Made by a program: the position numbers and the translations under genes. The notes under the pieces are model-generated. The model was not told the DNA's origin. It did not search any database and saw nothing but the letters and a program-made list of their open reading frames with translations. Source: Panopea generosa (lineage: Eukaryota; Mollusca; Bivalvia; Adapedonta; Hiatellidae). Taken from it: a stretch of DNA of 64,000 bases. The stretch covers positions 64,185,452 to 64,249,451 of the forward strand of contig CM055905.1 in the NCBI GenBank assembly GCA_029582155.1, read 5' to 3'. Positions 3,620 through 39,045 of this stretch are shown here, piece by piece; the stretch's first letter is position 1; the number at the start of each line of letters is the position of its first letter.

Positions 3620-4441
3620 ATGCATTATGACGTACGACCAACGTCGTCAGTGAGTGATATAACTCACAAACCAGTACACTGGACGATGGAAGAAGACAAA
3701 TGGTACCGTTCAACGCAGCACCTTTGTCAATGCGTCAATATTCGACTTGTTAAAGCATGGCATCCAACTATTCGAGATGAATATCGTTGCTTGAAAGATG
3801 TCATCGGCCGTTTCGAAAATAATCAAATTGTACACGTGACGAATGGAGATGAAATAACGCTGACAACTATATTCAGCAAGGAAACTGAGAGAGTTCATTT
3901 GACTCTCGCTCTTTACAAAAAGTGTAGGTCAAAATGGAGACATTTATTTGTATTTAAAAATGAGAACCAGATTTGTTTGTTTGCTTCCAAACAGCATACC
4001 AATTACAGGAATATGCCATTGCCTGTTGTCACGTATAATGCATTGGAAGGAACATTTGTTGAACCAGGAATTAAACGAAACAAAAATTCAAGTTTCATTC
4101 AAATTAAAAAGAATCCACCAACTGTACCAGATAGAAGAAAACGTCATAAAATTTTGAAACCACGCGCTGGCACTCTTCAAGACCGACAGATTATAAGTAT
4201 TGGAAATAGCAGATTTCGATTTTCATTGCACAAAAGGAGAACGAACGAAACTCAAAAAGTTCAAAATATTGACGAATTGTTTGATTGCCAAGTGCTGTGC
4301 ACACGTCCATTTTATGGGATCGAAGAAGCTCGACCACTTATTCAAAGGACAACCGAAGATTTACCGTATCCGGTACAAGCGTCAGAAGATCTGCAAGGAG
4401 CAGTAGGTCCATCGGGTCGTGAAAGTGTCTACAGGACAGAG
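3620..4441 (+). other. Gene 1 exon 1: unrecognised N-terminal domain
   Basis: Residues 1-274. Features shared with gene 2 are PVHWTM near residue 18 followed by KWY, a core with ALYKKCRSKW-x-HLFVFK, PVVTYNA, and a G-x-KRNKNSSFI motif. A basic stretch follows (RRKRHKILKPR), then an acidic tail with EDLPYPVQAS. Gene 3 keeps ALYKK, PVVY and FNKNAS. I do not recognise this as a known fold. The basic stretch could be a nuclear-localisation or nucleic-acid-binding patch. The exon ends on a codon boundary. Confidence 0.85.
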
Positions 4442-7400
4442 GTTTGTGTCATATTACATTGTATTTGGATATTTATTGATTACAATTAAACTGTTTGGCA
4501 CATAAAACTTTAACTTTGATTTCACTTATATTGCAAGTTGAATCTAAGAAAGGCTTGTACACGTATCTCTTCTGTAAGTGTTACACACATGTGAAATAGT
4601 TCATGCGAAATAAGATTTATTGTCAGACAAACTGGATAAGTCTGGCAGAATATTTGCCCAATACAAATCATCGAATTTGTGTCTTGACCATTTTTGTTAA
4701 AAGAATGACTATTTAAAAAATAATTATATTTTTTATCATATACTGTAATGCCATTCAAACAAAGAATATATTCTTTCTTTTTTTAACTAGGAACATAACA
4801 GTGTGCCAGAAACAGACGAGCAGGATTTACAACCAAGTGTACCATCTCGTCATGAAGATTATCGAAACTTGCAAAAACGAATAGCCTCATTTACCCACTG
4901 GCCACATCCAGCTACCATGCTGAACTGTAATCAGATGGCTGACCAGGGATTATTTTTCGCTGGTAACGTTAATTAAATTGATATTGAACTGATAAAACAA
5001 GAGCGTATATACTATAAATGTATCATAGGCTCATTCTTCTTTAAATTTTAAGTTGATTTTATTCACAGCCCTTTAGTACACATGACCTCAAACTGAAACG
5101 GACACTTCTCACACGAATATAAAATACATTGGCTTTTCAACTTTGTATATTTTCCATACAGGTATGGATTACTAAGGTGATATTTAGGCCCGTCACGAGG
5201 ATTCAAACTTGTATGTAGGCGTACATAGGGAAACCTTTAAACATCTTGTCTGATACTTTACAATGCTTAGCTATTTAATATGTGGCACATGCCCATGGTT
5301 TGTACCACATTGAAGCAATTGAAATATAACTCTGGGCTACACGTGACCTTGCTAGGATTTCGATATTTCCATGTAGTTTATTTTTGTTCATATGATGATT
5401 CAATGGTTTTCACTCAATGTATACTTGTTTGAGTTTTCATGTTTTTCAAGATATTTAGTTTAAGTGAGCTGTAGGAGGATATTTCAAATTAGTTCAACCA
5501 AAGAAGATGTATGACATTCATTAAGCAATAGGAGATACGTATACATGTATGAAACATGTTGCTAATTCCAGTTTCTCTCACGCCCGGATTCAATTTTCTT
5601 TTCTTCGGACACGTTATGTGCTTTCCAGAGATCATTCTATCAGAAAGTACCAAATAGATGTCAAGGTCTGGTACGTTGACCCTTTGTTACATATAGTCAG
5701 TTGAGAGTTGGGAGAAAGACGTAAACCTAGTATTTTGGTCACTTGCTGAATTTTGCAAGATATCCCTGTAAATCAATTATGGGAACGTTATATTGATATT
5801 AACTGCGATAACGTATTAGACTATATCATATATTATTAAAGATATATCCTTGTTTTCTTTTCATCAATCTATACCACACAGGTATTTATGACCGATACGA
5901 GGTCGTAGGTTCGAGTACCGCTAGCTCCAAACACTTTATGTGAGAGAGTTTGCCAGTTACTTGCGGAAGTACGGTGGTTGTACTCAGATTATGGCATGAA
6001 GCCCTATCATGATATAATGTGTTCCTCTTCATTTTGTAGGACCTCACGATCTTGTGCGATGCTACCACTGCGGTATCGGACTGAAAGACTGGTCACACCA
6101 AGACAATCCGCTGTATGAACACATCAGATACGCTCCATATTGTGAACATCTCGTTCATACCATCGAGCCGGAACTTCTTGGTCACTATCGAGTATGTTCA
6201 TATTAGTTTATCAGATAACCTACTGATTACTTATAGACCTTGCATGTTCAATTAGCTCAAACAAACTGTGTAACCGAGTTTGACAAATTATTTATTTTTT
6301 TGGGGATGTATGAGCTCCCCTACATGACTCATAAAATATTATATTAATTATACACATATCAATTATACGTGTAGAGTTTCAGTTAAGAAATAACTACTCA
6401 AACGTATGGAATCAATTGATTATATCAATCCCTTTACAAAGGCGACATCTTTTGCTGATAATAGTGCAGAAACCTGATACGGCCGCATAATGTTTCTAAC
6501 ATTACTTTTTACACTATATACAATTAACATTAATTTAATTGCAGTTTCCAAAGCAATGATATACGAATAATAGTAAATGACCGCAAATAAATAAGAGGAA
6601 CAAAGATAATTAATTAAAAGATATATACGGATTTATAAACACTTTCAAACTAAACATTTTAACGCCTAACGCTGCTGTTGTCATTTATACAATTTGCAGT
6701 CATTTTTGCTGCCGAGTTTAACAGAAGCAGGGTCTGGACAAATCCTTTCACAAACTGGTAATATTTTAATTTCAGTTGAATATTTGTTCATTAAAAGTGT
6801 CATTCTATAGGCACAAACACAGTTTTTGTTATTAAGATGTCTAGCTGTTAGTTCTATTTATGTAATAAATTTCATACAATTGATTGTTTTAAAGCGTGTT
6901 AAGGACGAAATAAAAAACAATACAATCCATAAAACAAATTTGGATTACAGTTAGTCTTTTTGGTTATATTAAGTATGTAATTCTAGTATTTTTAAAAGTA
7001 TCCTTGACAAGAAACTTACCTACTGAATGTAATGTATTACACACTGGTTATATTTTTATGTTCTATCATCACTATAGCTAGTAAAGTTTCTATTTACAGA
7101 CCCACATGGAAACAATTACAGACACCCGGAATACCAGATTTACGAAGTAAGAGTGTCGTCGTTTGCGAAATGGCCACGTGACATCATTCAAACCCCAGCA
7201 CAATTGGCTGAAGCAGGTTTTTTCTATACAGGTACTATGTATATATTAACCTTATATATAAACATAACATGCTTTAACCTATATAATTGTGATATGATTA
7301 TTATATATGTACATTAGGTATGCAAGATGTGGTACGTTGTTTCGCTTGTGATGGCGGCCTTCAGCGCTGGGATCCAGAGGATGATCCATGGATAGAACAT

Positions 7401-9798
7401 GCACGCTGGTTCCCGGAGTGTGCTCACGTGATACAAGTGAAAGGTATGGAATACATCCAACTTGTGAGACTAGCCCTGGATCCAGACTCTGAGGATGAGG
7501 TAAATATTCGTAAAACCTCGTAATTTGGTTTTGTTTCACAGCATAATTTCAATGCCTTAATAAATATAAAAAAAATCCTATATTTGCTTTGTATGTTAAT
7601 CTGTACCTGTGCTTTGTGTAAAATGAGATAGTAGTTAAACAACAAATATGCTGTAGCAGCATTGAACAGACAGTATAACCAACTGGATAGAGTACATTAA
7701 TGCCATTTTCCGATAGCTACGGAGTTGAATATTGCCCTTTGTTCTAACGGTAAAATATTATATTCCAACTCTATTTTAAAGTAATATTTTTCATAGCAGG
7801 AATGTATCTCCACATACAAATGCACAATAGCTGTTAGGTTAGTTTTAAAAAGAAAGTGCAGTGACACCCTAAGGTTATTGTTTAAATAAGAAGTCTTCAA
7901 ATGCTCATAAATACATTCATGCATCGGTTAATATTCTATTAACGTCAAATTATTTACATTAGTGATGTTGTTAATCATAATTTCCATTGTCAGTGTTTGC
8001 TCTACTATCTACAGTAACAAATTCCAACCACTATGAACCATTTTGAAAAATATTACAAACCAAATAACATAGGACTATTTTTTTCATCTTTTTCAAGCGC
8101 AAGAATCATATTGCCATGGGTAAAAAGGCACAACTGTTTAGTGATTAAGTCAATACTTGGAATACAAAATAGTCACGTTTGAATGTTGTATTATAATGAT
8201 GTTTTCAATTTAAATATAAATACTTTTTTACAGTTTAATATGTTATATTTCAGGACGAAGACGGTGGTATTGCACAGGGCCTTAGCAACATGCAAATAAA
8301 CAACGGAAACGGTAAAGATATTATAATTAAATAAACAATGCATACAATAATGAAGTAAATTTTAAATCACTTTATTGGAATAACATTAAGTGGTCCATAA
8401 CTTCACACACCATTAGTTACATAAGTTTCTGATAATAATCACAAATCATTACACTACACATGTGCGTGTAATGTGAATTTAACGACAAAGTAAAGAAAAA
8501 CGTATTTATATACACATATGTTAAATGGGAGTTAATTCAGAAAAAAAGTAGGATACCCATTGAATCGGATTAGAAATGAAATAAAAAACAAAATATCTTC
8601 TCCATGTTAATTATTGTTTTAGCATAATTAATTGTAATAGTTCTTATTCAGTTCTGAAACATTTTGTTGAAAATAAAAATGGTATGAAACTTCGTAGCAC
8701 GTACGTTTATAACATGTAGTGAATGTGTTTTTTAATTTGAAAAAAAAACAACATTTGTTTCTATTTTTACAAAGACATATTGATAACAATGATGTCATAG
8801 TTACGAAGATGAAACAGTTATATTGATGAAAATATTAAAATTCAATTTGGTTAGAACTGCTGTTCGTTTTGCGGAGGTGCATTATAAGGTCAGGCTACTT
8901 TGCATATATCTTATCTGGGTTGCTGTCCATGCTTTACAGGCAACCAACAGCCGAGGAAGGAATCTGACGATCCCATATATAGACCAGCAGCTCAAAGCGT
9001 TATAGGGTTTGGTTATTCCAGAGCAGCTGTCAAAATGGCTATAGAGGAATGCAACACTAAAAGCAAGTACAAGTCAAACAAAATCGTATAATCAAGGACA
9101 TTTCGCAGACCAGATGGACATTTCGTCCTGCCAAACCCTAACTCTTAACAATATATTGGTCATCTTTTGATTCCTGTTCATAGTCATTGTAAATTTTGAC
9201 AACTTTACCAAGTGCACGTTTTATGATCCTACCTAAACTAGTTTAGAGTTCACGAACTTCGTGGCGGTACCCGTTTACAATATTAATGTTTGTAATCTTA
9301 ACAGCTCAAACATATCAACATAAAGAGAACAATAAACAAAAGGATGCAATTCATACAGGTATAGAACTTTTAAAAGAGACAATTTAACTTTTTTATCGAG
9401 ATTTGAACCAACGGTCCCAAATTAAGAATTCTACGAATGAAAATCATCAATTAATTATATAATACCACAATACTATTATTGCTAAGACTGTGTCATATGG
9501 GAGATATATTATAAACCAATAATGTGTTTTATTGCAGATATACGTTGGAAAGCTGAAGATCTTCTCAATTTGCTTCTGGACAAAGAAGATCAAGGAGAGG
9601 TGCTGCCGACAGATTCACCGAGACCCGCATCTCCCGTGATGCCACTTCAAATAGACAGTAAATTACATTATTTAATTATTTCTTTTTAGTAGTGAATATT
9701 CTTTTTTGTTTTAAAATGGAAATATAATATATGCTATAAATTGGTATTCTTGGTAAACCGGCACGGGTAAATGCAGATCTGTAGTCTCAGTTCATATA

Positions 9799-9835
<37 letters not shown>

Positions 9836-18205: not shown

Positions 18206-19504
18206 ACTAAAATTGAAATGCACAACCCCTAAAGTTAAATTCGCAATTATATCAGTATCTGATATGCCGGCTTTTTGCAGCGATAATGTCGATATATCTC
18301 GACCTCACTGACCTTAACCAAACTGATTATGTATATGATTGATATCACCTGATATAATATGATGCTGTCATGATAACTACCTAGTTGGTAATTGACCTAT
18401 ATCGTGCTTTGTTATGTATTCGTTTCAGGAAAAAATATAGCAAAACCTTATTCATATAACCATCGCATATTCATCGCGAATAATTATCTTTATTTTCAAT
18501 TCTTATTGTTCAATATAGTTTAATCGATATTCATATTACCTGGCCAGTGTTGCGTATATTTTATGATTTCAAAATATTCATTAGTTCACAATATAACAAT
18601 TAACCAGCACAGTCTGGCAATGTTTGAACAGGATTTAAGATAACAGCGCTCTGTGTCATTTTAACATGATACAAATCTCATAAATTATCTACCTCAATCG
18701 ATCCAAATAACAAACACTCAGTGACAATACATACCGGTTACTGATAAAATTGGTTCGTACATCTGATTATATTATCAGTTAAGTATAAAATTTCAAACAT
18801 GAAAAGCCTTAAAGATCATCGTACTAAAACTACCAAATTTTGATTTTATATAGCGAATTTAGTTTAACAAATATGGCAACGGAATTAGATCAGCTATTTC
18901 TGACGCTGTTATGCTATACGTATTGGGACTTACACATCTATGGTTCATCTGATGATATGTGCTCCTTTTAAAAAAATGGCCTTCGTCTGTATTGTAGGAA
19001 CAAATCCATATAACATATATTAACAAATCAAAATAAGTTGTAAACTGATCAATATTAGTGTTAACATTCGCTTTAGGAACAGCTCCATATAATATATACT
19101 AACAAATTAAAATAAGCTGTAAACTGATCAATATTAGTGTTAATATTCGCTGTAGCGTTTAAGTTTAATAGGTACGAATGAATTTGTTTTGTTATCTGAT
19201 ATAACCAAACCTATGGATTGAAATCTAATATCACTTCTACAAATTTGAAAGCAGGAGTAAGTTGTTGTTGATAAAAGCTGGTCTGCCTTGAGGTAAATAA
19301 TTTAGTACTATGTTAATGTATTCTTTATATGTCGGCTATCAAAGTGTTTATAACTTAACTTAACATTTGGTGTCTAACAATACTCAATACGTAAGGCAAT
19401 TTTATCTAGTGAATGTATGATGTGCTGTATCTAATACAACTGAGGTTTGATAACCGTTTATTTGTGTTAAAATTCGTCATAATGGTTATATCCTGTAATT
19501 TTCA

Positions 19505-20165
19505 TGTGTCATAATATGTTCATACATTACAAACGGTCAGACGCAAGGCACACTTGTGTTATACTATCTTATACATTCCACATCTCCAGAAGCAAGGCAC
19601 ACATGTGTCATAATATTTTTATACATTACCCACGGTCAAAAGCACGGCCCACGTGTTTCATACCATTTTATTACAATAAACACAGGCAGAAATCAGGCAC
19701 ACATGTGTTATAATATTTGTATACATTACACAGGGTCAGAGGTAAGGCACACATGTATCATAACAGTTGTATACATTAAACACGGTCAGAAGTAAGGCAC
19801 ACATGTGTCATAATATTTTTATACATTACACACGGTCAGAGGTAAGGCACACATGTATCATAACAGTTGTATACATTAAACACGGTAAGAAGTAAGGCAC
19901 ATATGTGTCATAATATTTTTATACATTACACACGGTCAGAGGTAAGGCACAAATGTATCATAACAGTTGTATACATTAAACACGGTAAGAAGTAAGGCAC
20001 ATATGTTTCATAATATTTTTATACATTACACACGGTTAGATGTAAGGCACACATGTGTCATAACATTTTATTACAATAAACACGGGCAGATATAAGGCAC
20101 ACATGTATCATAACAGTTGTAAACATAAAACACGGTCAGAAGCAAGGCACTCATGTGTCAAAATG
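19505..20165. repeat. 50-bp minisatellite, about 13 copies
   Basis: The unit carries AAGGCACACATGTGTCATAA and a CATTACACACGGTCAGA-like stretch, repeated about every 50 bases with moderate divergence. The CACATGTG palindrome is kept in most units. Short reading frames through it are artefacts of the repeat. Confidence 0.9.
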
Positions 20166-21911: not shown

Positions 21912-24900
21912 ATGGATATATTGGGAAACGACAACGTTAGGTTGCGTGTGCCAGTACATTGGACAATGAAAGAAAAGTTGTGGTACAGTGCAATGCAGAG
22001 TACCATCCGTATCAAAACGGACAAACAATATGGACTGATCACGCAAAAAGTAGTTAGAGGAGTACTGCGTCACTTTGAAGATGGAATGGTAGCAAAATTA
22101 AACAGAAATGAAAATGAAATATCAATTACATCTGGTAAGATTCTTCACGGTTATAGGACGGTAAAATTAACTGATAATTTATACAATAAATGCATATCGA
22201 GGTGGAACCACTTGTTTGTATTCAAACATGGCAATGCATTGTGTTTGTGTCCTTTAGCAATGCACTTAAACTATTGTTCTTTTGGAAGCATTGAATTGGC
22301 TTCTGAAATACCTTTATTAACATACGATGCAACAGAGAATATATTTATTGAAGGCGGTAAAAAACGCAACAAAAATGCAACGTTTATTCCTCGGTCTATA
22401 ACAAAGAATGGCAATGCGCCTAAACGATGTAAAGCTAAGAAACCACGTGATGTCACTCGACAAGAAAAATACACAATCAGTTTGACATCAAGAAAAACAC
22501 GGTACACCCTGATATATCAAAAGACACTTGATGATGAAGAAAGAAAAGAGGATGATGGAAAAAGGGGAAAAGATGATGTAGAAAGGAAAAATGATGATGG
22601 AGAAAGGAGAAATGATGATGGAGAGAGGAGAAAGGTTTTTGGCGAAATGAGCAATAATTTCAAAAGAATGTTCTTGTATCAATTTCAAGAAGATTTGTTG
22701 TTACCGCTAACTGGTGATGTGGAACGTTATCCAGCATTTCGGTCATTTCCAGCAGACGAAGACGTTCACTATTCAGTACAAACTTCAGACGAGCAAGAAG
22801 GTCATCGTTATATATATACGACAGAGGTTTGTTTATCCTTATGGATATTGATCACACTTGATTTACATTGTCCACTTCACCATAGCGTGAAATCTGTCCC
22901 ATAACTATACTGAAAGGAACAGCTAACCCGTAACCTGTGTATTTCCAATATCTTCAAATATGTATTGATTTACAGTCTCAATGTTCTTTCTTATTTAAAC
23001 CAAACTTTCAAAGAAAAAAAAAATGTTTTATTTTTTAAAAGAAAATTCATGAAATGTCAGGAACATAAATGTCAGGTGGCTGGTTAGCTGTTCATTGATT
23101 TATTATTATTCTAAGCTGATACACGCGTAATGTATAATAAAGGTTAACATATATCGTAAATATAAATAGTTGACATAATCAATATTGGCAGCGGTAGTAA
23201 GGCATATTGAAAAGAAACGTGAATGCATTTGTTTAATACATACTGAGTTATACTTGACATAATTTAATTATAACTGAAATACTGAGCTAAACACTGTTAT
23301 AGCGCATGTTGAATTATGATGCTTTCGTAGATATAAATTATGTGTAATATATTGTTTTTGAGTATCTTGATCTCCTTTCATAATGTAATGCACGAGTGAT
23401 ATCCAATATGTCATGTCATGTAATGCACGAGTGATATCCAATATGTCATGTAATGTAATGCACGAGTGATATCCAATATGTCATGTAATGTAATGCACGA
23501 GTGATATCCAATATGTCATGTAATGTAATGCACGAGTGATATCCAATATGTAATGTAATGTAATGCACAAGTGATATCCAATATGTAATGTAATGCACGA
23601 GTGATATCCAATATGTAATGTAATGCACGAGTGATATCCAATATGTAATGTAATGCACGAGTGATATCCAATATGTAATGTAATGCACGAGTGATATCCA
23701 ATATGTAATGTAATGTAATGCACGAGTGATATCCAATATGTAATGTAATGCACGAGTGATATCCAATATGTAATGTAATGCACGAGTGATATCCAATATG
23801 TAATGTAATGCACGAGTGATATCCAATATGTAATGTTCTTCGCCTTATAAATTGCATACTATACACGTTCTTTACGAAATACACATTCTGCAATAAACAC
23901 CCGTCGTTTCCCGTGGACACATTTATATAAAAAATTATGTGTTTACGTGTTAAATCAATTTGAAAATCTCAATTGAAAACATCTTTTCCTTAACACTAAC
24001 ACAAAAATGGATGTTTAGAGAAGTACTAATATGGATGCAATTAAAGCTTATATAAAGACCCGTTGTATCCTTGGTGGGTGTGTCAAGGGCATTTATAATA
24101 AGTTGTTCCTCGCTTATGGAGAGAATGAAGTCTCTATTATAACGGTTTAAAGATGTGTAAAAAAAAAAGATCAATGATGCTTATAAATCAACAACAAACC
24201 AAAAATGGTAAACAAAGTTCAAGACACTTTTCACACGGACACAAACGTAACATGTTACGTGACACGTATTCTGGGATTTCAACAGGAAGTGCCCATATAG
24301 TTTTTGACTCGCCGTTTTACAAAAGGGGACGAATGAGCGCATGGTAGATATCTTGACGTCGTTACTCTTCTAGAAATACCCTTAGCTATGCTGTTTTTCA
24401 GTATATTTTGGGCATCCCTTAAGTTGAATGTGACAATGCATTTCGAAAATAGGTTCAACAGTTAAGGCTATACAAAAGCGAATACTTTGAAAGGATGAAG
24501 TGAACATATACTACAAATCTAAATTCATATTTATAAATAACCTATTGAACACCCTTCGCACAACCTATCAACAAGAATGCATACAGAAAATATGTTTTCT
24601 ATATTATCCATTGCATTTCACCTGTTACAGTCCATGGTTCCGGAGAGAGATGATATAAGTTTCCACCCTAGTGTACCATCACGCTATGAAGAGTATGCCA
24701 CATTGCAAAGAAGAATAGGGTCTTTTTCGACATGGCCTCATCCTACGGCATTGCAGGACTGTAAACAAATGGCGGAGACCGGGCTGTTTTTTACTGGTTT
24801 GTTAAATTATTTCCTAAGTTTTACGATTTAAAAACATGCAGGTATTTCCGTTTTTATATATATTCCCAAAACTTGATATAGTTTTATTGAAATAAAAGCA

Positions 24901-27900
24901 GTAAAGCTTTATACAATTTTTAGGCAAATAAACAATGAAAGCAAACGTGCATTTTGAATATTGGTCTGATAAGAATAGGTAAACATGACGTAAACATTTA
25001 CGTATACGATTGGTAATATACACCTGTAAGGAAATCACACCAAGAAACACATTGTCAATGTAAACACTGGCTTTTTAGATTGACATATATTATTTAAATT
25101 ACTAGAATAAGGTTCCACTAAATATTATTGGTATGCTATTTTGCTAATTAAAATGAAGACTAATCTAATTTGCAAATATGTTATGCTGACTGAGTTATTT
25201 TGGTACACATATTACTATCATTTGATGATGATCATTTTCCTAATTAAACACTAATTCTAACCCATTGGATTTTTTTATCAGATATTATTACCAAACACTC
25301 TACAAAATATTATCAGAAAAAAAAACACAACAAATTTATGTATTATTTAAACATTATCGCAACTGCATCATTCTTATTAGAACTTTCAGTCAGTTTGATC
25401 CTTAGCATGATATTACATTGAATAATTGAACTTTGTAGGTCCGCACGATCTTGTTCGATGCTACCACTGCGGTATCGGACTTAAGGACTGGTCACAGGAA
25501 GACAACCCGCTTTACGAGCATATCAGATATTCCCCACAGTGCGAGTTCCTCGCCAATACAGTAGAACCAAGCCTCCTTCGACAATATCAGGTTTGACATT
25601 CTTATAACGTTATATCATATTATGTTATGTTGTTGTTGTTTGTTGTGGGGGCGGGGGTGGGGGAGATTTTGTGTTCTTCTTTTCTATCATATCATATTTA
25701 TGCATTGTTGGGGAATGGTTTCATATATCATGGCTGGATATTTGATCAAACGTCCAAAAGTTTATTATATAACGGAACTATTTTCAGAAATAGAACAAGG
25801 TTATAATTTGCTATTAGATATTAAAGCAAACACACACATGAGATGTAACTTGGAATTGTTAGCATCTCAATCGTAACAAAACCAATTTTAGTATAATAAG
25901 TATTTAATAAATGCCATGAATATTAATAATAATTATGGTAATTGATACAACTATTTATATTACAATTTCAGTTTTATTTGCCTAATCCTAATGAAGGAAC
26001 GCAGGATGGAGCCAGTTCGCGAAATGGTAGGTAGAATTTAGATTATTAAAAAAAAACATGATGATGTTTACCTTAGTAAAATTTAAGATAACTTGGACAA
26101 TATTCTTCCTTTCCTCTCAAATAGAATTACATTTGTTTATTTGAAACTTAATAAATACTAATTTACAATAAAACGTGTTTAATGTTATGTTTATATTCCA
26201 AAGAACCACCGGGAACAATTTACTGACATCCGGAATACCAGGCGTACGAGGTAAGAGTGTCCTCGTTTGCGAAATGGCCACGTGATATTATTCAAACGCC
26301 AGCACAACTGGCGGACGCTGGTTTTTTCTATACAGGTAAATAGTGTTTATCTATTATGACGTAAATAGCATCACATTAACGCAACTGGTTGTCATTTAGA
26401 GATATCTAACAATCATGAGAAATTTTATTTGTAAATGTTGGTTATTAAGTAATACATCATTTTGTTTATTACTATGTTATGCTGCCTTCGCATCTGTCAA
26501 TGCATCGAGCACATCTGCGTATAACGTCACCTGTTTCTTTATTTGTAACATTAACATGAGAGCTTTAGTGTCTTACATGGTACACATTTGTATGTTGTCG
26601 TATTTATAAGACATCAGTCAGGCGTGACTATTTGTATTTACACTTTATTCATCTTTTGATGTTATATTGAGGATGAGCGAGGTTGTTTGCATCTTTTACA
26701 ACTTTAAGGTATCTAGATGCGTCTTCTGCTATTGACCAATCAAAGGCAGTGCCCCTATTTGTCACTTATACTATATGTATGGTGTACTTATTTTAATTGT
26801 TCTGTATAATGATTATATTTCATGTATAAATTAGTGTCATACTTTAGAGGCTGCGAATTGAATGCCGAGCCTCCTGATTGTGTTTGTGTAACATTTATTG
26901 ATGACTGATTATTTCACTAGGCATGCAAGATGTGGTACGCTGTTTTGCTTGTGATGGCGGTCTTCAGCGCTGGGATCCAGAGGATGATCCATGGATCGAA
27001 CATGCACGCTGGTTCCCGGAGTGTGCTCACGTGATACAAGTGAAAGGTGTTGAATATATTCATCTCGTGAGACTAGCTATGGACAACCAAGATTCCGGGA
27101 ACGATGTAATTATTTATGCATCAGTTTTATGAGTTGGTTTCAGCAATACACGTTTGTCCTACCCATAATTAGTATGTTAATTGTAACTTAATTGAAAAAT
27201 GGGCTTTTAATCCAGGGAGATTTGATCAATGTTACCAAATTTGATCATAATTCTACAGCACTGTACAAAATGTGTATACAATTTATACAATCTTTCAGAA
27301 GCCATTCATCGAAAATGAATTGTCGGCCAATCAACCAATAGACGTAGCGGCGGATCAACAGAAGGCCAGTTACTGTCCCTATGTCATTCTTCGAGTGACG
27401 GATTCATGAATTATAAAACAAAAATTGAAGCATTTTTAACGCAAAAATACTGTAAAAATCTGTATATCATATTGAGTGTACCGGTCATTTAACTTTTTCA
27501 AATTGGTTATGTATGATTTAAATATCAATTTTAAACTGAATCTTTGATAACTATTCCTTTTTGTCTCTCCTGAGTATTTTCTTGAAGGTTTATAACTGAA
27601 TTCACATTGCACCTTACTATTTTTCAGGACGACGAAGGCGGTATCGCTCAAGGTCTCAACCACTTGCAAATAAACAATGGTAAACAGTTACATAGTATAA
27701 AATATGTCTGGGTCTTTGTGTCTTTTAAAATGAATTCAAAGAATTATTCCAATGCAATAACATCTAATATGTGGCAACATTTGTTTAATATTCTTTTGTA
27801 ATATTCATTTGTAATATTCATTTGTAATATTCATTTGTAATATTCATTTGTAATATTCATTTGTAACGTATTTGGAGATGCCAAGTATGAGAGATTCTGT

Positions 27901-30796
27901 AGAGACTGACTTGTATAAAATCTTATGTTTGGAGTAACTAAAATTCATTATATTTTATAACGAATATGGTAGGCAAAATCATAGGTTTTCGAAAACGGTA
28001 TTAAATGTAATTACAACTTCTTTAAATTGTGCAACGTATATGGATATGCACAATCAAAGGTTTTCGATAACTTTGTTTATTCCAACGATTTACAGACACC
28101 CAACAGCCGAGGAAGGAATCAGACGATCCCATATATAGACCAGCAGCGCAAAGTGTTATAGGGTTTGGTTATTCCAGAGCAGCTGTCAAAATGGCTATAG
28201 AGGAATGCAATAGTAAAAGTATGTTTGGTATATATGTTGCCTACATTCACATGTATTAAGTAATCCTGAATTGTATTTCCATGATCAATATTAATTTTGT
28301 ATATTGTCACATATTGGAAATGACCCATTGTACCTTTGAAACCGTTCGAAAGGATCTAAATTAAACACAATAGATGAAAATTATAAGAACAATAATCTAG
28401 TATATTAAAATCATAATTTCTCGCGTGCATGAGTACTGAACGAGACACCTTTTCCTTCAGCCTACATGGCATTATCATTAACAATTCCACACAGTTATGA
28501 TTAAATAAATATATAGAATCAATGATTAAGCTTGAAAACTGATCTTGAAATCACAAAAAAACGTCGAAAACTGTAACTGTTTAATGAGTTACAGGAAGAA
28601 ATTATATAGATAAGAAAATGCAAATGATTGTGAGTTTGTGAACGCTAGCTTATTCACGCAAAATCTCGCAATATCTCATTTTTTAATTATCTTAACTTCC
28701 TTTCACCTCAGGAACACAAATCAAAATTATTAAAAAGTATTAAATTCAGACAAACATTTAAAGAGTGTTTAACTTTAACCTTACTTTAGACAATAATTCC
28801 TATATGTCAAGTTTTCTTTAAAAAATGCATGTATATATAAACTGTCTTGTAACACCTATACAGATTTCATACCATGTACCTGATGCTTGGCTCTCATTTC
28901 TTCTTCCTTCATGAACTATTGGACAATATCCTCGGTAAACTTGTCAAACGCTTCCTCCCCAGCGAATAAGTCCAACATCCTGGCAACAGAACCTGAACAA
29001 TATATTGATACAGATAGTAACAAGTAGTTTTTAAAGGAAATATATCGGGATTTTTCAAAAAAAAAATTAAAACATATCATACCTATATAGTTTCAATCTC
29101 ACTATCATCAAGGAATTATATAAAGTTTAATAAGGAAATGCAACACATTGACAGTTTGTGAACGCTCGCGTATTCACGCAAAATCTCGTAATATCTCGTT
29201 TTCAATTATCTTGACTTCCATTCACCTCAGGAACACAAATCAAAATTCTTACACTGCAGAATGAAATTCCCATCAAAACAATACCATTCCCACCAAATTG
29301 GGTTTAAAAACTGAATCTGATTAAAACAATTGAATACTGCACCTAAACTAACGATACATTACTATAAATTTTCTTCAAACTTCAATATCTTACTTCAAAA
29401 TCCTATTGCATGATCGAAACCTGTTTAATAAATAGTTAAGATTACATACAACTTACAGTTTATGTTAAGAAATCAGTTGCCTGTGAGTTATGAATGATTA
29501 CCCTGCCAAATAATGAATTCTTCGTGTGCTATTTTATCAACATTTAGTCAGGAGATGCAAGTTTCCTATCCTTCTATACAAGTCCTTGATTACAGTGACT
29601 ACAGTCTTACCACCGCTCATGTAAAGGTCATGGTCGATATTTTGTTTCATCTTAACATTATTTATATGATACATTTAGAAATTATCATGACGCCAGTTGT
29701 GTTGTATTATTTCTATCTTAAAGTTGAGTTAGACATCCAAATTTGAACAGGTTGAGCAGGAGCAAGTCGTTTACTACCAATTATTTTATTTTCGATCTAT
29801 CGAAAAACAATATAAACTTCATTACTAACATTATTATTTTACAATATCAATAAGTTAACGTATACTTTTCTTATTCAAGATATATGTTGGAAAGCCGAGG
29901 ACCTCCTCAATTTGCTGTTAGACAAGGAAGACCGAGGAGAGGTGCTGCCGATTGATTCCCCGAGACCCGAGGAGTCTCCGGTGATGCCGCTTCAAATAGA
30001 CAGTAAGTTACATAAACTCCTTTTAACTTTAGTCACATATACTTAGTTAAAAAGTTATTTATTTTACTTCGAATGTGAAACAAGTAATTACAAATTAACT
30101 TATACAAATCATGCTAGGTGTCTTCCTGGATAAAACCAGTAATAAGCACATGCAGAAAATGTGTCTTGCTCAAGGACACCACACTTAGCTGTGAGGGGAG
30201 GATAAAACCAACGACCCTCCTAACTTGGGTTCGATGCTCTACCACTAGACCACGTGCTCCGCACTAATTATACCTTACTTTTGTTAACGTTTCATTGCGT
30301 TGATTCTTTTCTGTTTTGATATATCTTGTTACAGTTACACATTACTTAATCTCATACAGCGAATGTTTTGGGCTGTGTATTAGAAAGTGTAATTTGTAGA
30401 GGACATAATCATGTTAGGTTAAACATAGCAAGCACAGACATGCAATATTTCATTATTTGTCTTTATTAGAAATATTAAAATTCACGGCATTCGCTATTAA
30501 ATGTACATCGAAACAATTTATATGTTAAATTATAAACTTAAATCTTAATTCACAAAACGTTGTTTTAAACAAAAAAAAAATACTACGTTTCAGCTACAAC
30601 AGAAGAGGGACTGCTTGAAGAAAGATCAATGTTACTGAGTAGGTTAAAGTGCATCAGGTGTGGGGAGAACGACGTTAATGTGTTGTTTCTTCCATGTGCC
30701 CATCATAGAATGTGCGTCAACTGTGTTGCCGATGTTACTATGTGCCCAATGTGTGGAAAAACAGTTAAAGAAAAAATCAAAACGTACATGGCATAA
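21912..30796 (+). CDS. IAP-family gene 2, in-frame TGA in BIR2 exon
   Basis: Ten exons: 21912-22826, 24631-24796, 25439-25590, 25972-26026, 26204-26335, 26921-27105, 27628-27679, 28096-28218, 29880-30002, 30594-30796. The sum is 2106 nt, 702 codons including the stop, with every splice junction in phase. Order: N-domain (1-305, with PVHWTM, HLFVFK and KRNKNATFI), BIR1, BIR2, UBA, RING. Codon 437 (26224-26226) is TGA where genes 1 and 3 have AGA. Everything downstream is intact, so this is a very young pseudogene, a truncated N-domain/BIR1 protein, a gene that skips exon 5 (132 nt, frame-neutral), or a sequence error. I chose the ATG at 21912 over 21792 because it places PVHWTM as in gene 1. 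Intron 1 holds a minisatellite and a mariner relic. Confidence 0.82.
22530..22634 (+). repeat. In-frame 21-bp repeat in gene 2 exon 1
   Basis: Five imperfect 21-base units encode a seven-residue DD-x-ER-x-x repeat (residues about 207-241), strongly charged and probably disordered. Gene 1 lacks it, so it is a gene 2-specific expansion between the N-domain core and BIR1. Confidence 0.9.
23385..23836. repeat. 30/35-bp minisatellite, 14 copies
   Basis: Fourteen units of GCACGAGTGATATCCAATAT plus one to three TAATG/TCATG pentamers, so unit length alternates between 30 and 35 bases. It lies in gene 2 intron 1. Long minus-strand frames through it come from the 30-base periodicity and are not genes. 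There are no spacers, so it is not CRISPR-like. Confidence 0.95.
24029..24210 (+). pseudogene. Mariner transposase N-terminal relic
   Basis: In gene 2 intron 1, one frame reads AIKAYIKTRC, then GIYNKLFLAYGENEVS and a stop, then CVKKK. This parallels the N-terminal helix-turn-helix part of the mariner copy at 35966 (YVKTRC, then HGQNEVSYATV, WIKKF). The remainder is too decayed to follow. Alternative: chance similarity, though order and spacing match. Confidence 0.5.
26204..26335 (+). other. Gene 2 exon 5 with premature TGA
   Basis: First half of BIR2. The phase carried from exon 4 (one base) reads TGA at 26224-26226. Beside it, compared with gene 1, are a one-base loss and a one-base gain that cancel. 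The rest (VSSFAKWP, DAGFFYTG) is intact. The exon is 132 nt, so skipping it would keep the downstream frame but remove half of BIR2. Confidence 0.8.
27299..27409 (+). other. Candidate alternative terminal exon in gene 2
   Basis: After an acceptor (ATCTTTCAG), the phase-0 frame from exon 6 stays open for 36 codons and ends in TGA at 27407. It would give an isoform ending after BIR2, without UBA or RING. Two related segments in gene 3 (from 44943 and 45376) keep the acceptor and AAG start but end after 14 and 13 codons. It could also be plain intron sequence. Confidence 0.35.
27798..27862. repeat. 13-bp tandem repeat, 5 copies
   Basis: Five perfect GTAATATTCATTT units in gene 2 intron 7. Confidence 0.95.
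28600..29505 (+). repeat. Two direct copies of dispersed repeat R1 in gene 2 intron 8
   Basis: About 28600-28740 and 29105-29505 both match 12118-12495 (GTTTGTGAACGCTCGCGTAT in the second). The second copy extends through CATGATCGAAACCTGTTTAA. The 28745-29100 stretch between them shows nothing recognisable. Confidence 0.65.
30108..30262 (-). mobile_element. tRNA-derived SINE (family B)
   Basis: On the minus strand it starts with an A-box-like GTGGTCTAGTGGTAGAGCAT and continues to GGACACCACACTTAGC-type sequence (given here as on the + strand). Related minus-strand copies lie at about 34570 and 42826. It is in gene 2 intron 9. Confidence 0.65.
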
Positions 30797-30804
30797 GTAA
30801 CTAA

Positions 30805-30922
30805 TTTTTTTTTTTTTTTTTATTTTTTTTTTTATTTTTTTTTTTATTGTTACAAAATGTTAAGCTCTTGCATATACAAAAAATTAACATATTTAATATT
30901 AATGAGCTACGTATTGTGATAA

Positions 30923-31006
<84 letters not shown>
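30805..31006. repeat. Poly-T, (GT)n and (GA)n tracts after gene 2
   Basis: A T-rich tract at 30805-30850, then about 20 GT units and over 20 GA units (about 30925-31006), just after the gene 2 stop codon. Such tracts are prone to length change. Confidence 0.95.
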
Positions 31007-31008
<2 letters not shown>

Positions 31009-31130
31009 CTATATAGTTTTCACAGTTTATAGTTTAAATTTTATTAGCTCTTTTGTAACTATATATAATAGAAGAAATTATCATGTCAAGTATTAAACAC
31101 ATAACAAGCGTATCTATGTTGTGTAAGTAT

Positions 31131-31590
31131 ATCTTTATTATTCAAGATATATGTTGAAAAGCCAAGCACCTACATACATACATAATTATAATGCTAGCAA
31201 TTAAACATTACTATGTCTGAATACTTGGATGCTTATAGAAAGCCGTCTTATTATAGGTTTACATGTTTGTATATCAAGTTTGGTTAGGCTTAGATGTTTC
31301 GATTTGTTTGCATTATGTTTTCGTCATTGATGCCTTGTAATATATCTCAAATCAACTAAATCGGAAAATATTGGTATATTTAAACTATAACAGGTCTAAA
31401 GGTACAAAACACTGTGCCACTTACTAAGTTAAAGTGGATCCAATGTGTTAAAAATACGTTAATGTGTTGTTTTTACCATATGCCCATCATTGTAGGTGTG
31501 TCAACTGTGTTACCATTGTTACTATGTGCCACATGTGTGGAAAAACAATTACAAAAAAAATTCAAAACGTACATGGCATAAATAACAACA
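31131..31590 (+). pseudogene. Dead copy of IAP exons 9-10 (RING), first relic
   Basis: A CTTTATTATTCAAG acceptor and ATATATGTTGAAAAGCC match the start of gene 2 exon 9 but decay at once. From about 31397 a RING-exon copy keeps CCATATGCCCATCATTG-type zinc-loop sequence and ends in GTACATGGCATAA. It has lost the first cysteine pair and contains stops. Confidence 0.75.
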
Positions 31591-32045
31591 AACTTTTTTT
31601 TTCTTTTTTTTTTTTTTAAATTGTTAACTGCTTCTATATTCAAATATGTATGTATATATTTATCAGCTACGTAATGTAAAAATAGAGAGAGAAAGAGAGA
31701 TAGAGAGAGGGGTAGGGGTGGCTGTTAGTTAAAGAGAGACAGACACACATAGAAACAGAGAGACAGAGACATACGATATAATTTTAAAAGTTTACATATA
31801 TAACTGAACTAGTATCTACAGAACTATACAATACATGCATACTATTGTTAGATTTATAATGTTACAATGTCTAATTACTTATTGAAAGCCAGTTCTATTA
31901 TGTGTTAACATGTTAATTTATCAATTCTGATTGGACTAATACATGTATGTGTCTATTTGTTTGCATTATGTTTTCGTCATTGGTGCCTTGTGATATATCT
32001 CAAATAAACTAAAATAGAATACATGTGTATGTTTAAACTATAACA

Positions 32046-32240
32046 GGTCTAAATTGACAAAAGCTTGTGACACTGGCTACGTTAAAGGGTATACAATGTC
32101 GTGAAAAATACGTTAATGTGTTGATTCTACCATGTGCCCATCATAGAAGGTGTGTCAACTGCGATGGCGATTTATCTATGTGCCCCATGTGTGGGAAAAA
32201 CAATAAAAGGAAAAATGAAACCTTACATAGCATAACTTAT
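32046..32240 (+). pseudogene. Dead RING exon, second relic
   Basis: One frame still reads LPCAHHRRCVNC then SMCPMCGK, the second half of the RING, but the first cysteine pair and the KTYMA end are frameshifted or lost. The upstream 31810-32045 matches the sequence upstream of the first relic, so the two are tandem copies of one about 640-bp block. Confidence 0.8.
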
Positions 32241-34080: not shown

Positions 34081-34087
34081 CGTTGTT

Positions 34088-34114: not shown

Positions 34115-34119
<5 letters not shown>

Positions 34120-34569: not shown

Positions 34570-34697
34570 TATTTAAGTACTAAGCCTATGCGGAACACTG
34601 TATCTTGCTCCAGGACATGACACAGCCGTGACGGAGGATCGAATCCACGACCTTCCGGTCATGATGCCGATGCTATGTCACTGGACCACACGCTGAA
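34570..34697 (-). mobile_element. tRNA-derived SINE (family B)
   Basis: Minus-strand copy with an A-box-like GTGTGGTCCAGTGACA and B-box-like GTGGATTCGATCCTCC, related to the copies at 30108 and 42826. Confidence 0.65.
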
Positions 34698-34888
34698 CAT
34701 ATTTGATTTTGTATTATACTGTTTTCGTAGTTTCATACATATATATATATATATATATATATTCATATATTTTAGAAACCCTGTATATGACCAAAGAAAA
34801 ATGTTTGCTGATACGAGGAGCATTTCAAATGTAATGCAAATGGGGTAATATAAAGCGCGCGTTTGATAGATATTTAATTATTTACGCG

Positions 34889-35966
34889 TCATACCCTCAA
34901 AGTAATCCCCTTATTACGTACACAAAGCTTCAAACGTTTAATCCAGTTCTTAAAGGCATCTTCATACTCATTTTCAGGTATACCCAGCATATACTGATAA
35001 ACAGCGGACCCCAGGGCCTGTTGGGACCTATACCGTCTACCAGCTAAATGTTTTTTTCAGTTTAGGGAACAAGAAATAGTCACATGGGGCTAGGGCTGGG
35101 GAATATGGTGCATATGGAAGAATTCGAACACTCTCCTTGTTCAAAAACGAGGTCACAATAGCAGACAAATGCGCAGGGGCGTTGTCGTGCAATAGGGATA
35201 GGTGCTTTAAGCCAGTGTGTGGGCGACGTTTGAAACATTGTTTTTTAAGTTTCTTCAACACTTTTTCTTTATAAAATATACCAGTCACAGATTTTCTATT
35301 TGGTACAACCAGTTGCATAATAGGACCACGTATATCAAAGAAAATAACAAACATTGCTTCTTTAGCACTGATCAATATTTTGGCAATTGTGGGGCGGCGA
35401 CAGTTTTTGGTATCCAATATTTTGTTGTTAATTTTTCTGGTAGGCTCGAAAAAGTGTACCCATGTCTCATCTCAAGTAATAATGTAAGAAAACCGCTTTC
35501 TTTGATATTTTGGAAACATTTTAAACAGTTTTCTGGCGGTTTCAAGTCTGACACGCTTTTGCTTGTCTGACAACAAATGAGGGATCCATCTAGCTGTAAT
35601 ACGTCTCATTTTTAAAATACGTTTTAAAATGCAGAATACGCTTGCGGCTGAAATACCAACTATACTTAGTCTAACTATCTGATGAACAGTTAGTCTGGCG
35701 TCAGACTTAACCACATCACATACTTTGTTAACCGTAATGTTAGAAGTAGCACTACAAGGACGTCCCGATTTTGCTGCATCATTAATGGAGTCAAAACCGC
35801 TTTTAAACTTCTTTATCCACCTCATGACGGTGGCATACGACACTTCATTCTGTCCATGAACAACACACAATACGTCAAAAATCTCCTTCGCTGATACGCC
35901 AAGCTGGCATCGAGTCTTTACATAACCTCGAATTTCAGCTGCCTTTACACTTCTCTTGCCAACCAT
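34889..35966 (-). pseudogene. Mariner transposase, two inactivating lesions
   Basis: Reads from ATG at 35966 (MVGKRSVKAAEIRGYVKTRC) through a helix-turn-helix region, GRPCSA, DETWVHFFEP, HDNAPAH and YSPALAPCDYFLFPKLK to a stop at 34889. Length, about 350 codons, is normal for mariner. A TGA sits just before DETW (codon about 166), in the same frame on both sides. A frameshift at the A7 run near 35050 moves the C-terminus (LGSAVYQYMLGIPE) into another frame. The catalytic aspartates of DETW, HDN and CDYF are visible. Inverted terminal repeats were not found at both ends, so the element is probably truncated as well as dead. Confidence 0.85.
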
Positions 35967-36609
35967 TTTACTATAGTGTCAATGACTATATGTTGCTTTT
36001 ATCACTGTATTAGCGATAATACTGCGTGTACGCCTGTAAACATGGTATGTATGTGTAGGGAATGGATGTCTCGCTACATCGGTACAATTTTCACGAAAAT
36101 CCCGTGCAAGGCAAGGCCGCACGATAATCAGTTGCAGTATGGATTTTATTCTGTTTCAGCTTTAAATAGTTTACATTCAGTTAATGCGAGTGTTAACATA
36201 TTTCAAGTCTCATATTTATTTTGTACACAGTTGTCATTTCTCATCGAAAAACAGATTATAAAACCTTTTGTTGTGTTACGCCTGGAAGCTAGGAAAGATT
36301 TTATAAAGGTATATGTCCAGTTAAGATGTTTATTCCAAAAGTGACCGATGGCAGAGATGCATGCACTTTATAGAATCAAGAACAGTAACTCATATAATGA
36401 TGAGTATAAACATATAACATAATTAGAGTTGTGTCCCATAATGTAATGTATCTAAAATTCCGGCTAAAAGTAGTTCCTTCATTAACTTTTTGTTCCAAAC
36501 AAAGATGTTTGGTCTTATGTGTTTTACTAGATTTTTTTTGGTTGAAAACTTGAGGGTCACACTACAGTTTAAAGATGATTTGATTTGATTGATGGTTTTT
36601 CCTTTTTAG

Positions 36610-36699
36610 TATCCCACCGGAAACCTATTCACGTTTCTAAATCTTTGGAAACCGCGCAATAATTTTCACAATGACAAGGAGAAGATTTTATTAAGACAG
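36610..36699 (+). other. Candidate 5' untranslated exon of gene 3
   Basis: A 90-nt segment between a strong acceptor (TTTTTCCTTTTTAG) and donor (AAGACAG|GTAGGT). It would splice to an acceptor at 38438-38439 (TTGTTTCAG), 66 nt before the gene 3 ATG. A TGA in frame directly before that ATG shows it would be non-coding. It rests on splice signals alone. Confidence 0.35.
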
Positions 36700-38004
36700 G
36701 TAGGTTATGTTGCGGTACACTTGTAAGTAATTTATTTATTCCATTGTAATTATTATATTATTTATATATTTTACGAATGCTTGTTGATAAAGCCGTACTT
36801 GAATATATCTATAAAACAGTAAGATTCATATAGAATAAACCGTTGCGGTCCCACATTTGTGTCACGAACATACGGACAGGTAATGCTTCCTCCGCCCATG
36901 ATTACTGGAAAATGCTTGTATGTATCTGTGTTTGACTGTTCCTTATCGTACTCGACTTTTTCGATTTAACAAACATTTTGTCGAAACCTCAGCTAAGTTA
37001 AGTTTCTACATTCGCTTAGAATGGTATGCGAAACATCGAATTTTCAAGAGTATTAGGTTACTAGAAAAATGAAACATAAACATAATAAAATTACTTACAT
37101 ATATATGCTAACCGTTATGAGCGTTATTTATGTATCTTTTCGATAAAATAAACTGTAAATTCCCCTCAATGGATACCCCTCTTGATTTCAATATTTTGGG
37201 AACCCACGTAGAAATTGCAATGACAGTGACGTAATTCACCAGCAAGTTTAAACTATCGTTTGTAAGTGTAACTTATGTGGTTCGTTTTAATGTTATTATG
37301 TTCAGCTTACTTTTTTTTATCGATTAAACAAGCCGTAAATTATATATTCATACTAAAAATAGACGCCACATAAGCAATCATAATGCACAGAGCGTTATGC
37401 ACAATCTAGCTGGTGAATTTTAAATATGTGCTGGGAAGCTGCCAAAATGTATTTGTGTTGATTACATTTCGAGTGTTGGGATCCTGTCGTTTATATCAAT
37501 AACGTGTATGGTTAACTTTGTAGGTAAATGAAGTTTATTTCTCTTCACTTATTAAACTTTGTATTAATCGTCTATTTATTTAAAGGCAGTGTTTCAGAAA
37601 AAAATATCTAAAACAAAATAAAAAATGAAATTGAGTTTTAGAAAATGTAAAGAACCAACTTTTATATCTAAACTACAAGTAATTTGATATATATCAAATC
37701 AACAAAACCGTACCGCAAACGCTATTCAATTAAGGTTGTGAAATTGAATCGGAAACCCAATAAATTAAAATTGAAAAAGCACAAGAAACAAAACAGTATT
37801 GATTTGTTCAATACATTCTTATTAGAACTCAGTTCTTAAGAATATGAAGAACTTATTGTATTTTAAAACTTTCTTAGCTACGAACAATTCACATAGAGCT
37901 ATTTAAAAATCAATTTCAATAGTAATAAGAGGCCATAGCGGCATAGTGGTCTTAGGCACCTTATCATTATCGATATCGATGAACTTGTATTTGTCAGCTC
38001 TTAT
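36700..38004. other. No gene seen (gene 3 upstream region)
   Basis: AT-rich sequence with no reading frame, SINE or inverted repeat that I can support. A loose duplication around 37130-37340 (CGATAAAATAAACTGTAAAT / CGATTAAACAAGCCGTAAAT) is the only structure. Confidence 0.5.
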
Positions 38005-38285
38005 TGCTTCCGTCACTAAGGAAATGCTTATGTAACTGTTTGCTTTTATTTCTTGTGCGCAAGAATCTCGCTTCTGTTACTTAGGATATGCTCATCTAAT
38101 TGTCAGCTGTTATTTCTCGGGCGATGTAATCTCGCTTCCGTTACTTAGGATATGCTCATCTCATTGTTAGCTGTTATTTCTCGGACGCAGAAATCTTGCT
38201 TCCGTTACTTATGATATGCTCATCTAATTGTTAACTGTCATTTCTCAGAAATCTTGCTTCCGTTACTAAGGAGAGGCCTATGTAA
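38005..38285. repeat. 64-bp tandem repeat, about 4 copies
   Basis: Units of CTTCCGTTACTTAGGATATG followed by a CTCATCTAATTGTCAGCTG-like stretch and TTATTTCTC, diverged at both edges. It lies just upstream of the gene 3 start exon. Confidence 0.85.
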
Positions 38286-38505
38286 CTATTGCAAGACATG
38301 TGTACTAATGGTACAGTGATAATAATGCCCAATGGTTACTTATGTTCATTAATGGATTTATAATTAGTATAATATAATAAGGCTTATCCGACATGTTTGC
38401 TAAAACATTTGCATTCAGATTAATTCTTTTTTGTTTCAGATACCTGATTTGTTTAACAATAAACAGAAACATTTATCCTCAATTGAGGATATACTGTTCT
38501 GAACA

Positions 38506-39045
38506 ATGGATTACTTGAATCCTTTAATAAGAACTTTTAAAGAGAATGCATATCCGTACGTCAATTTGAATACCAAACATAAGCATCGACAAATGTATAC
38601 CACTCTTCAATTAGTTTTAAGCAAGTTTAAAATCAATGCTGTTGTGGTTGTCAATCCGGATGGAGATGTGTGTGTGTATACAGGTACAAACTACAATTAC
38701 GGTGCAAAATTAGTGTATTTGTCATATGCTTTATATAAAAAGGTTATTTCGAGAAGAATTGAAATATTTGTTCGTAAAAAAGGGGACAGCATGTATCTAT
38801 GTGGTATGAGAACGTCTCAATCTTCTACGCAAACTGTAGATAGGAACATAGCAATGGTACAAGTGCCGGTTGTATATTGTGATCCTACAAACGGCAAACT
38901 ACTTCATCGTGAAATAGGATTCAACAAGAATGCAAGCATGAAAACAGCGAAAACTGAAATTGACGTAAGTTTGAAATTAGACCACGTGAGCGATGTTATG
39001 GACAGCAGCTTGAAAGAAAATGAAATCACAACGAGTAGAAGAAAG
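38506..39045 (+). other. Gene 3 exon 1: divergent N-terminal domain
   Basis: 180 residues. Motifs aligning with gene 1 are LSYALYKKVISRR, IFVRKKGDSMYLCG, QVPVVYCD and GFNKNAS. The PVHWTM start, the basic block and the acidic tail of genes 1 and 2 are absent, so this copy marks the minimal conserved core. The donor AAAG|GTAAAT leaves the frame at phase 0. Confidence 0.8.

Follow-up and report, generated by a model that had tools for sequence, protein, structure and literature searches.

We analysed a window of 64,000 nucleotides from the bivalve Panopea generosa (assembly GCA_029582155.1, contig CM055905.1, forward-strand positions 64,185,452 to 64,249,451; coordinates below count from its first letter). 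The window carries three genes of the inhibitor of apoptosis (IAP) family, here called genes 1, 2 and 3, each of which begins with an exon encoding a domain that has no significant match in the libraries searched. A first-pass annotation had proposed that this domain falls outside BIR, CARD, UBA and RING and is joined to IAPs, and our searches bear this out. Its set of three genes, in contrast, grows to five, two of them (genes 0 and 4) lying outside the window.

The first exons of genes 1, 2 and 3 are open frames (Table 1), each with a GT donor directly 3' of its end. The frames that hold them run for 183 to 371 codons, compared with a maximum stop-free run of 170 codons in 40 base-shuffled windows; frame length alone is little proof, because a repeat array and an element resembling a long interspersed nuclear element (LINE) in the window also hold long frames. 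BLASTP aligned the exons of genes 1 and 2 at E 5e-31 (36% identity over 202 columns), of genes 1 and 3 at E 1e-8 (31%) and of genes 2 and 3 at E 2e-7 (27%). All three pairwise scores were reached by none of 1000 shuffles, and the proportion of nonsynonymous differences (pN) was below that of synonymous differences (pS) in every pair. Judged by these sequence comparisons, the three first exons are homologous.

Most of the motifs named in the first-pass annotation recur, some in altered form. The motif YxKxxS[KR] is present in all three window copies and PVHWTM is limited to genes 1 and 2, both as described. LFVFK and P[VL][VL]xY each hold for two of the three copies; gene 3 reads IFVRK at the former and fails the latter. 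The signature given as Gxx[KF]NKN[AS][ST] occurs as written in no copy, the form that all three share being [RF]NKN[AS][ST].

Besides the domain core, the first exon also encodes a basic block and an acidic linker. In gene 1, the core spans approximately residues 18–162, the basic block residues 163–212 and the linker residues 213–274. We describe the domain as a basic module of about 110–150 residues; the basic block and then the acidic linker, which is flexible, come after it. The isoelectric point (pI) of the core is 9.0–9.7 in all five copies, and that of the block is 10.6–12.0 in the four copies that have one, including genes 1 and 2 (12.0 and 10.8), where the first-pass annotation had rightly placed such a block. 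The block contains KPR or HPR, plus VSL except in gene 1 (ISI) and gene 2 (ISL), and the linkers of genes 1 and 2 have a pI of 4.5 and 4.6, respectively. Across copies, identity of the domain to gene 1 ranges from 18 to 40%, the only invariant columns are F, K, N-K-N and S, and the same exon end (E/GT, the slash marking the splice site) is kept in four of five. The gene 2 exon also contains a 21-bp in-frame tandem repeat (22529–22633) encoding a charged DDGERR-type stretch that is absent from gene 1.

The first-pass annotation had suggested that the domain may bring a substrate or nucleic acid to an E3 ligase. The basic composition raises the alternative that core and block bind RNA or DNA of viral or cellular origin, with the IAP acting as a sensor-linked or localised E3 ligase. 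In its favour are the pI of the core in every copy, which is weak evidence, the basic block with its KPR or HPR, and the report of a bivalve IAP type joined to PC4 (PMC7831173, in its accessible text). Yet no nucleic-acid-binding family was matched, the invariant columns form no rich basic patch, and gene 3 lacks the basic block; we consider nucleic-acid binding rather unlikely and lean towards a protein partner, as set out below.

A cluster of five IAP genes

Querying the whole genome (1.47 Gb, 39 contigs) with BIR2 gave at least 100 matches, around which we sampled loci in twenty 10-kb stretches and a single 4-kb stretch. The five best matches (80–100% identity) all lie on the contig that carries the window (C12): the three window genes, gene 0 about 49 kb upstream and gene 4 about 6 kb downstream. 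The window thus holds three of five tandem IAP genes. All five genes with a BIR2 at least 80% identical to that of gene 1 have a domain exon in the same place and orientation. Those of the flanking genes are 18% and 24% identical to gene 1 and have the NKN, the same exon end and the linker. Shorter frames scored equally in the profile search that matched them (e.g., L033 2438–2611, E 0.17 and 0.095); the exons of genes 0 and 4 are set apart by their length, place, RNKN, KPR or HPR block with VVSL, VQAS linker and E/GT end. In shuffle tests between cores, the observed score was reached by 0/1000 shuffles for genes 0 and 4, 2/1000 for genes 1 and 4, and 12/1000 for genes 1 and 0. Among the open frames of 150 codons or more in the window and sampled loci (38 in all), the five domain exons alone contain [RF]NKN, a motif that was itself defined from three of them.

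Genes 1 and 2 can each be modelled as nine exons whose phases agree and which together encode a single open product, of 641 and 670 residues, respectively; their splice sites were placed by hand, guided by the match between the genes and the open frame, and are predicted from DNA alone. Two stretches of each product match Pfam BIR (PF00653; E 5.5e-39 for gene 1 and 1.5e-41 for gene 2), which places both in the IAP (BIRC) family. At the C-terminus, Pfam zf-C3HC4_3 was matched above its curated cut-off (E 1.4e-8 and 1.5e-8), and among PDB sequences the RING part matched best to BIRC3 (3eb5, E 3.1e-9 by phmmer) and BIRC2 (3t6p, E 5.1e-9). The exon between the BIRs and the RING, which we take to be UBA-like from its position and resemblance, gave no Pfam UBA row at E ≤0.1 and a weak alignment (6.2 bits) to cIAP1 (3t6p) before its RING. 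No CARD row appeared in the Pfam scan of the two products at E ≤0.1. The order domain-BIR-BIR-UBA-RING is found in genes 0, 1 and 2, and in gene 4 except for an unread stretch: gene 0 matches BIR1, BIR2, UBA, exon 8 and RING, and gene 4 matches all of these but the second half of BIR1, a region in which some of the sequence is N. The annotation's statement that the domain always precedes BIR-UBA-RING thus stands for genes 1 and 2 but not for gene 3 as a complete gene, in which BIR1 is damaged and the gene's own RING has a stop.

In gene 1, the intron that follows the UBA exon (from 9063) requires a GC donor, AAAA/GCAAGT, where genes 2 and 3 have GT. Two damaged RING copies (31458–31565 and 32037–32222) follow the RING exon of gene 2 within the region 30594–32222, and gene 0 likewise has a second RING copy, the last exon having been duplicated repeatedly.

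Table 1. Positions of the domain exons and other parts of the IAP genes. Window coordinates are used except for genes 0 and 4, which are given within the sampled loci L032 and L039.
Feature	Position	Strand	Basis or remark
Gene 0 domain exon	L032 4810-5628	+	Three-copy profiles, E 0.19 and 1.2
Gene 1 exon 1: core, basic block, acidic linker with YPVQASED	3620-4441	+	274-codon open frame, donor gtttgt, homologous to gene 2 and 3 exons by sequence
Gene 1 BIR1	4791-4962, 6040-6191	+	Hand-built spliced model, Pfam BIR
Gene 1 BIR2	7138-7231, 7318-7499	+	Hand-built spliced model, Pfam BIR (residues 387-450)
Gene 1 linker exon, UBA-like exon, following exon	8254-8311, 8940-9062, 9538-9657	+	Hand-built spliced model, weak 3t6p alignment
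Gene 1 RING exon with stop codon	11386-11588	+	Pfam zf-C3HC4_3, phmmer to 3eb5
Gene 2 exon 1: core, basic block, charged repeat, linker with YSVQTSDE	21912-22826	+	305-codon open frame
Gene 2 BIR1	24631-24796, 25439-25590	+	Hand-built spliced model, Pfam BIR
Gene 2 BIR2	26242-26335, 26921-27105	+	Hand-built spliced model, Pfam BIR (residues 416-479)
Gene 2 exon, UBA-like exon, following exon	27628-27679, 28096-28218, 29880-30002	+	Hand-built spliced model
Gene 2 RING exon with stop codon	30594-30796	+	Pfam zf-C3HC4_3
Gene 3 domain exon, diverged; lacks the basic block and linker seen in the other copies	38506-39045	+	180-codon open frame, donor gtaaat
Gene 3 recent duplicate of the last part of exon 1 of gene 1, with linker YPVQASEY, detached from domain exon	42046-42227	+	blastn 85.8% (4260-4843 against 42046-42634), protein match E 2.5e-9
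Gene 3 damaged BIR1, first half	42582-42693	+	Internal deletion
Gene 3 BIR2	44063-44156, 44395-44576	+	
Gene 3 UBA-like exon	45863-45985	+	75.6% identity with gene 1
Nearest intact RING downstream of gene 3	48592-48780	+	51-53% identical to gene 1 and 2 RINGs
Gene 4 domain exon	L039 4976-5689	-	Three-copy profiles, E 0.28 and 0.36

In searches of the genome with the domain exons, that of gene 1 gave three matches at E ≤0.01, all within the window. Ten matches at E ≤1 were obtained with the gene 3 exon, comprising the three window copies and seven weak matches (E ≥0.025), all with stops. The gene 2 exon gave 15 at E ≤1: the three window copies, 11 on its basic or charged stretch (residues 172–250) and one in the core, with four stops. 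The gene 0 exon matched only itself. Because the window queries missed genes 0 and 4, such searches miss diverged copies, and absence elsewhere is not proven. No domain exon was found in the sampled DNA surrounding two more distant IAP pieces near the cluster (about 64.115 and 64.148 Mb). At three IAP loci on chromosome 5 (L045, L048 and L049), a single exon encodes a similar linker together with BIR1 and no core was detected, although only 4 kb of L049 was read and an earlier exon could lie beyond; at a fourth (L043–L044), neither linker nor core was detected. Within these limits, the domain seems confined to the one cluster in this genome. Beyond it, no relatives were found in viral contigs (three-copy alignment and gene 1 and 2 cores), bacterial and archaeal contigs (three-copy alignment) or phages (gene 1 exon).

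The chromosome 5 genes carry a PTQ[AV]S linker and the start of BIR1 in one exon (L045 4537–5394, L048 3763–5064, L049 940–1620), unlike the C12 cluster, in which an intron separates the two. The N-terminus of L048 was considered as a distant copy of the domain and rejected, as hhalign gave a probability of 0.2% compared with 0.8% for the reversed sequence and the core profile gave no row at E ≤3.

Pfam, whose families include PC4, and NCBIfam, PHROGs and PDB sequences contained no significant match to the domain. In line with the first-pass annotation, none of the five domain-exon proteins matched a Pfam family above its gathering cut-off; for the three window proteins, the best PHROGs match had an E of 0.065 and NCBIfam gave none. 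We regard as chance the sole Pfam row, PF01507 on gene 3 (E 0.0031; 18 bits, below its cut-off of 22.5), along with CDC45 (E 1.3), fermitin (E 0.86) and collagen IV (E 0.056), each of which, like PF01507, arose with one query. Two structure predictions of low confidence (predicted local distance difference test scores, pLDDT, of 42.3 and 48.4) gave the order helix, three strands, helix, hairpin; the domain is probably mixed helix and strand. It may be a known domain with an ordinary fold whose sequence has changed too far to be recognised, a reading compatible with the others weighed here, for and against which our opinion is evenly balanced. Both poor models agree on an order of elements that many common folds could give, while Foldseek searches against PDB and BFVD were empty at E ≤0.001, a weak test with models at pLDDT 42–48.

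Rates of change and the damaged gene 3

The domain changes much faster than BIR2 and RING; this is a claim about rate, not positive selection. By simple counts that are strongly saturated, the ten core pairs have pS of 0.60–0.81 and pN of 0.42–0.59, with pN below pS in each. For BIR2, pN is 0.03–0.16 across ten pairs (0.06–0.16 in the seven with pS of at least 0.53), and for RING it is 0.03–0.13 across six (0.11–0.13 in the five with pS of at least 0.61); the UBA exon ranges from 0.01 to 0.20 in ten pairs. Between genes 1 and 2, core pN is 0.42 compared with 0.11 for RING, at pS of 0.64 and 0.61, respectively.

Two alternatives are touched by these rates. One is that the domain associates with itself or folds back on BIR or RING as an autoinhibitor. 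It lies at the same protein end in four of five genes, joined via the acidic linker at the exon end, whose pI in genes 1 and 2 is given above. Contact with conserved BIR or RING should nevertheless hold the domain back, and the domain retains just the low identity to gene 1 given above, compared with 74–94% for BIR2 and 77–94% for RING across all pairs; we find this alternative doubtful. The other is that the first exons are relaxed or dying, functionless leftovers, as might be suggested by the damage to gene 3 and by its detached linker copy, in which nonsynonymous divergence from gene 1 (dN 0.26) exceeds synonymous divergence (dS 0.17). All five domain exons are open, although this is partly a matter of selection, because open frames were what the search picked out. 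In addition, every core pair has pN below pS, clearly so in genes 1 and 2, and the E/GT exon end is kept in four of five; we regard decay as very improbable.

Synonymous divergence also varies along genes 1 and 2, with dS of 0.16 in the UBA exons, 0.44–0.58 in the BIR2 exons and 1.25–1.76 in exons 1–3 and 9. The low values in the UBA and BIR2 exons suggest local gene conversion of the middle of the two genes.

Gene 3 is damaged. Its part from 42046 onwards was recently copied from gene 1 together with the introns, the copy starting inside gene 1 exon 1 (at 4260); blastn resolved eight matching pieces, 85–94% identical apart from the RING piece (74%). Its domain exon is more diverged, at 27–31% identity to those of genes 1 and 2. 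The first half of its BIR1 has an internal deletion, the second half was looked for and not found, and its own RING copy (46784–46891) contains a stop. The nearest intact RING downstream is perhaps not gene 3's own, given its low identity to the gene 1 and 2 RINGs. The domain exon spliced straight to BIR2 would stay in frame because both ends are phase 0. Between gene 1 4260–7507 and gene 3 42046–44584, the introns are shared at about 85–94% identity, the picture of a recent segmental duplication with several internal deletions.

The window holds other elements. Two adjoining minus-strand open frames separated by a stop (35037–35978) resemble a mariner-type transposase, and two long plus-strand frames (49616–52818) resemble a LINE reverse transcriptase. 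Minisatellite arrays lie at 19503–20164 (50/100-bp units), 23381–23836 (30 bp), 40503–40751 (25 bp) and 47339–48096 (36/144 bp).

Linker site, proposed role and known systems

The linker that follows the domain carries a conserved site, [PS]-[VT]-Q-x-S-[DET]. Eight linkers were compared: YPVQASED, YSVQTSDE, YPVQASEY, YSVQASDD and HPVQASTD from the cluster, and YPTQASED, YPTQVSDN and YPTQVSED from chromosome 5. They are not independent, as that of gene 3 was recently copied from gene 1 and L045 is close to L049, and the chromosome 5 linkers were chosen because the motif is visible in them. A profile of the cluster linkers matched L048 at E 1.6, with no match to L045 or L049 at E ≤3. The pattern [PS][VT]Q[ATV]S[DET], fitted to these linkers, occurs eight times in 290,798 residues of mechanically called open reading frames from the window and loci, every time in an IAP linker; the looser [PS]xQxS[DET] occurs 17 times, eight of them in those linkers, and marks 7 of the 38 frames of at least 150 codons, all of which are IAP first exons. 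TRAF1, TRAF2, TRAF3 and TRAF5 recognise Px(Q/E)E, PxQxT and Px(Q/E)xxD, according to the accessible text of PMC6125299. The linker site resembles such motifs, and we hypothesise that it could dock TRAF.

Tentatively, and with somewhat less than even confidence, we favour a reading in which the domain is a front end that brings targets to a RING E3 ligase linked to TRAF. If the genes are expressed as modelled, the domain would bind a partner that is more likely a protein than RNA or DNA, and that might be a host signalling protein or a factor from a pathogen; the linker site would dock the protein onto TRAF, the BIRs may bind caspases or IAP antagonists, and the RING would ubiquitinate whatever is brought in. 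Conserved effector modules, a variable front module and privacy to one cluster together fit an E3 specificity module, since a conserved effector with a variable front appears to be the usual pattern of such modules.

Several observations weigh against this front-end reading. The linkers depart from the TRAF motifs: at the PxQxT positions, P is present in six of eight (S in two) and Q in all eight, but T in none, S occupying P2 in all eight, while D or E stands at P3 in seven but the strict Px(Q/E)xxD is matched by one. The basic core would suit nucleic acid. Misalignment at 20–30% identity inflates pN, fast change also fits weak constraint, and core pN for genes 3 and 4 (0.58) approaches pS (0.60), leaving genes 1 and 2 as the main case of clear constraint. 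The cores of genes 0 and 4 are not significantly similar pairwise to those of genes 2 and 3 (29–150 of 1000 shuffles reach the score), and the three-copy profile matches genes 0 and 4 weakly; what ties these two to the set is their similarity to gene 1 together with NKN, position, exon end and linker. Finally, because gene 3 is damaged, the cluster is not uniformly maintained.

A bolder form of the front-end reading holds that the domain is a new fold from one bivalve lineage, a fast-diversifying intracellular head that would bind pathogen factors and pass them, or a TRAF signal, to the IAP ligase. We think this quite improbable; if true, the cluster would be a tandem family of sensor-ligases built on an IAP chassis.

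Among known proteins, cIAP1 and cIAP2 (BIRC2 and BIRC3) resemble the cluster products in their tandem BIRs, C-terminal RING and, between these, a putative UBA-like region, but the products described here have two BIRs and begin with an additional domain exon, and Pfam gave no CARD row for those of genes 1 and 2. Mammalian BIRC2 contacts TRAF2 through its N-terminal BIR (PMC8917759, accessible text), whereas here a linker peptide is proposed for this role. A further comparison is with the TRAF-docking peptides of CD40, LMP1 and TANK, to which the linker site can be related through PxQxT and Px(Q/E)xxD (the accessible text of PMC6125299). The putative docking site in the linker differs from these in having serine for threonine in all eight cases and in lying within an E3 ligase rather than a receptor.

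The expanded IAPs of hard clam and oysters share with the cluster their tandem arrays, two-exon BIRs, single-exon terminal RING and purifying selection, as far as the accessible text of PMC7831173 and PMC8917759 describes them. In most hard clam IAPs, the initial BIR spans the first two exons (PMC7831173, same portion), in contrast to the cluster genes, in which the domain exon comes first. Bivalve IAP genes are numerous for reasons that are unsettled. The accessible parts of the two surveys sort IAPs by BIR, RING, UBA, DD, UBC, WD40 and PC4 parts and do not name this domain, so that an unmatched front end could go uncounted; nor is it reported in the remaining literature searched, which did not extend to subscription journals, preprints or supplements. 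If the domain chooses targets, part of the IAP expansion would concern ligase substrates, beyond BIR number. A parallel is the bivalve BIR-PC4 protein (type G3; PMC7831173, accessible text): the domain gave no PC4 row in Pfam scans at E ≤10, but both are lineage-specific extra domains carried on an IAP.

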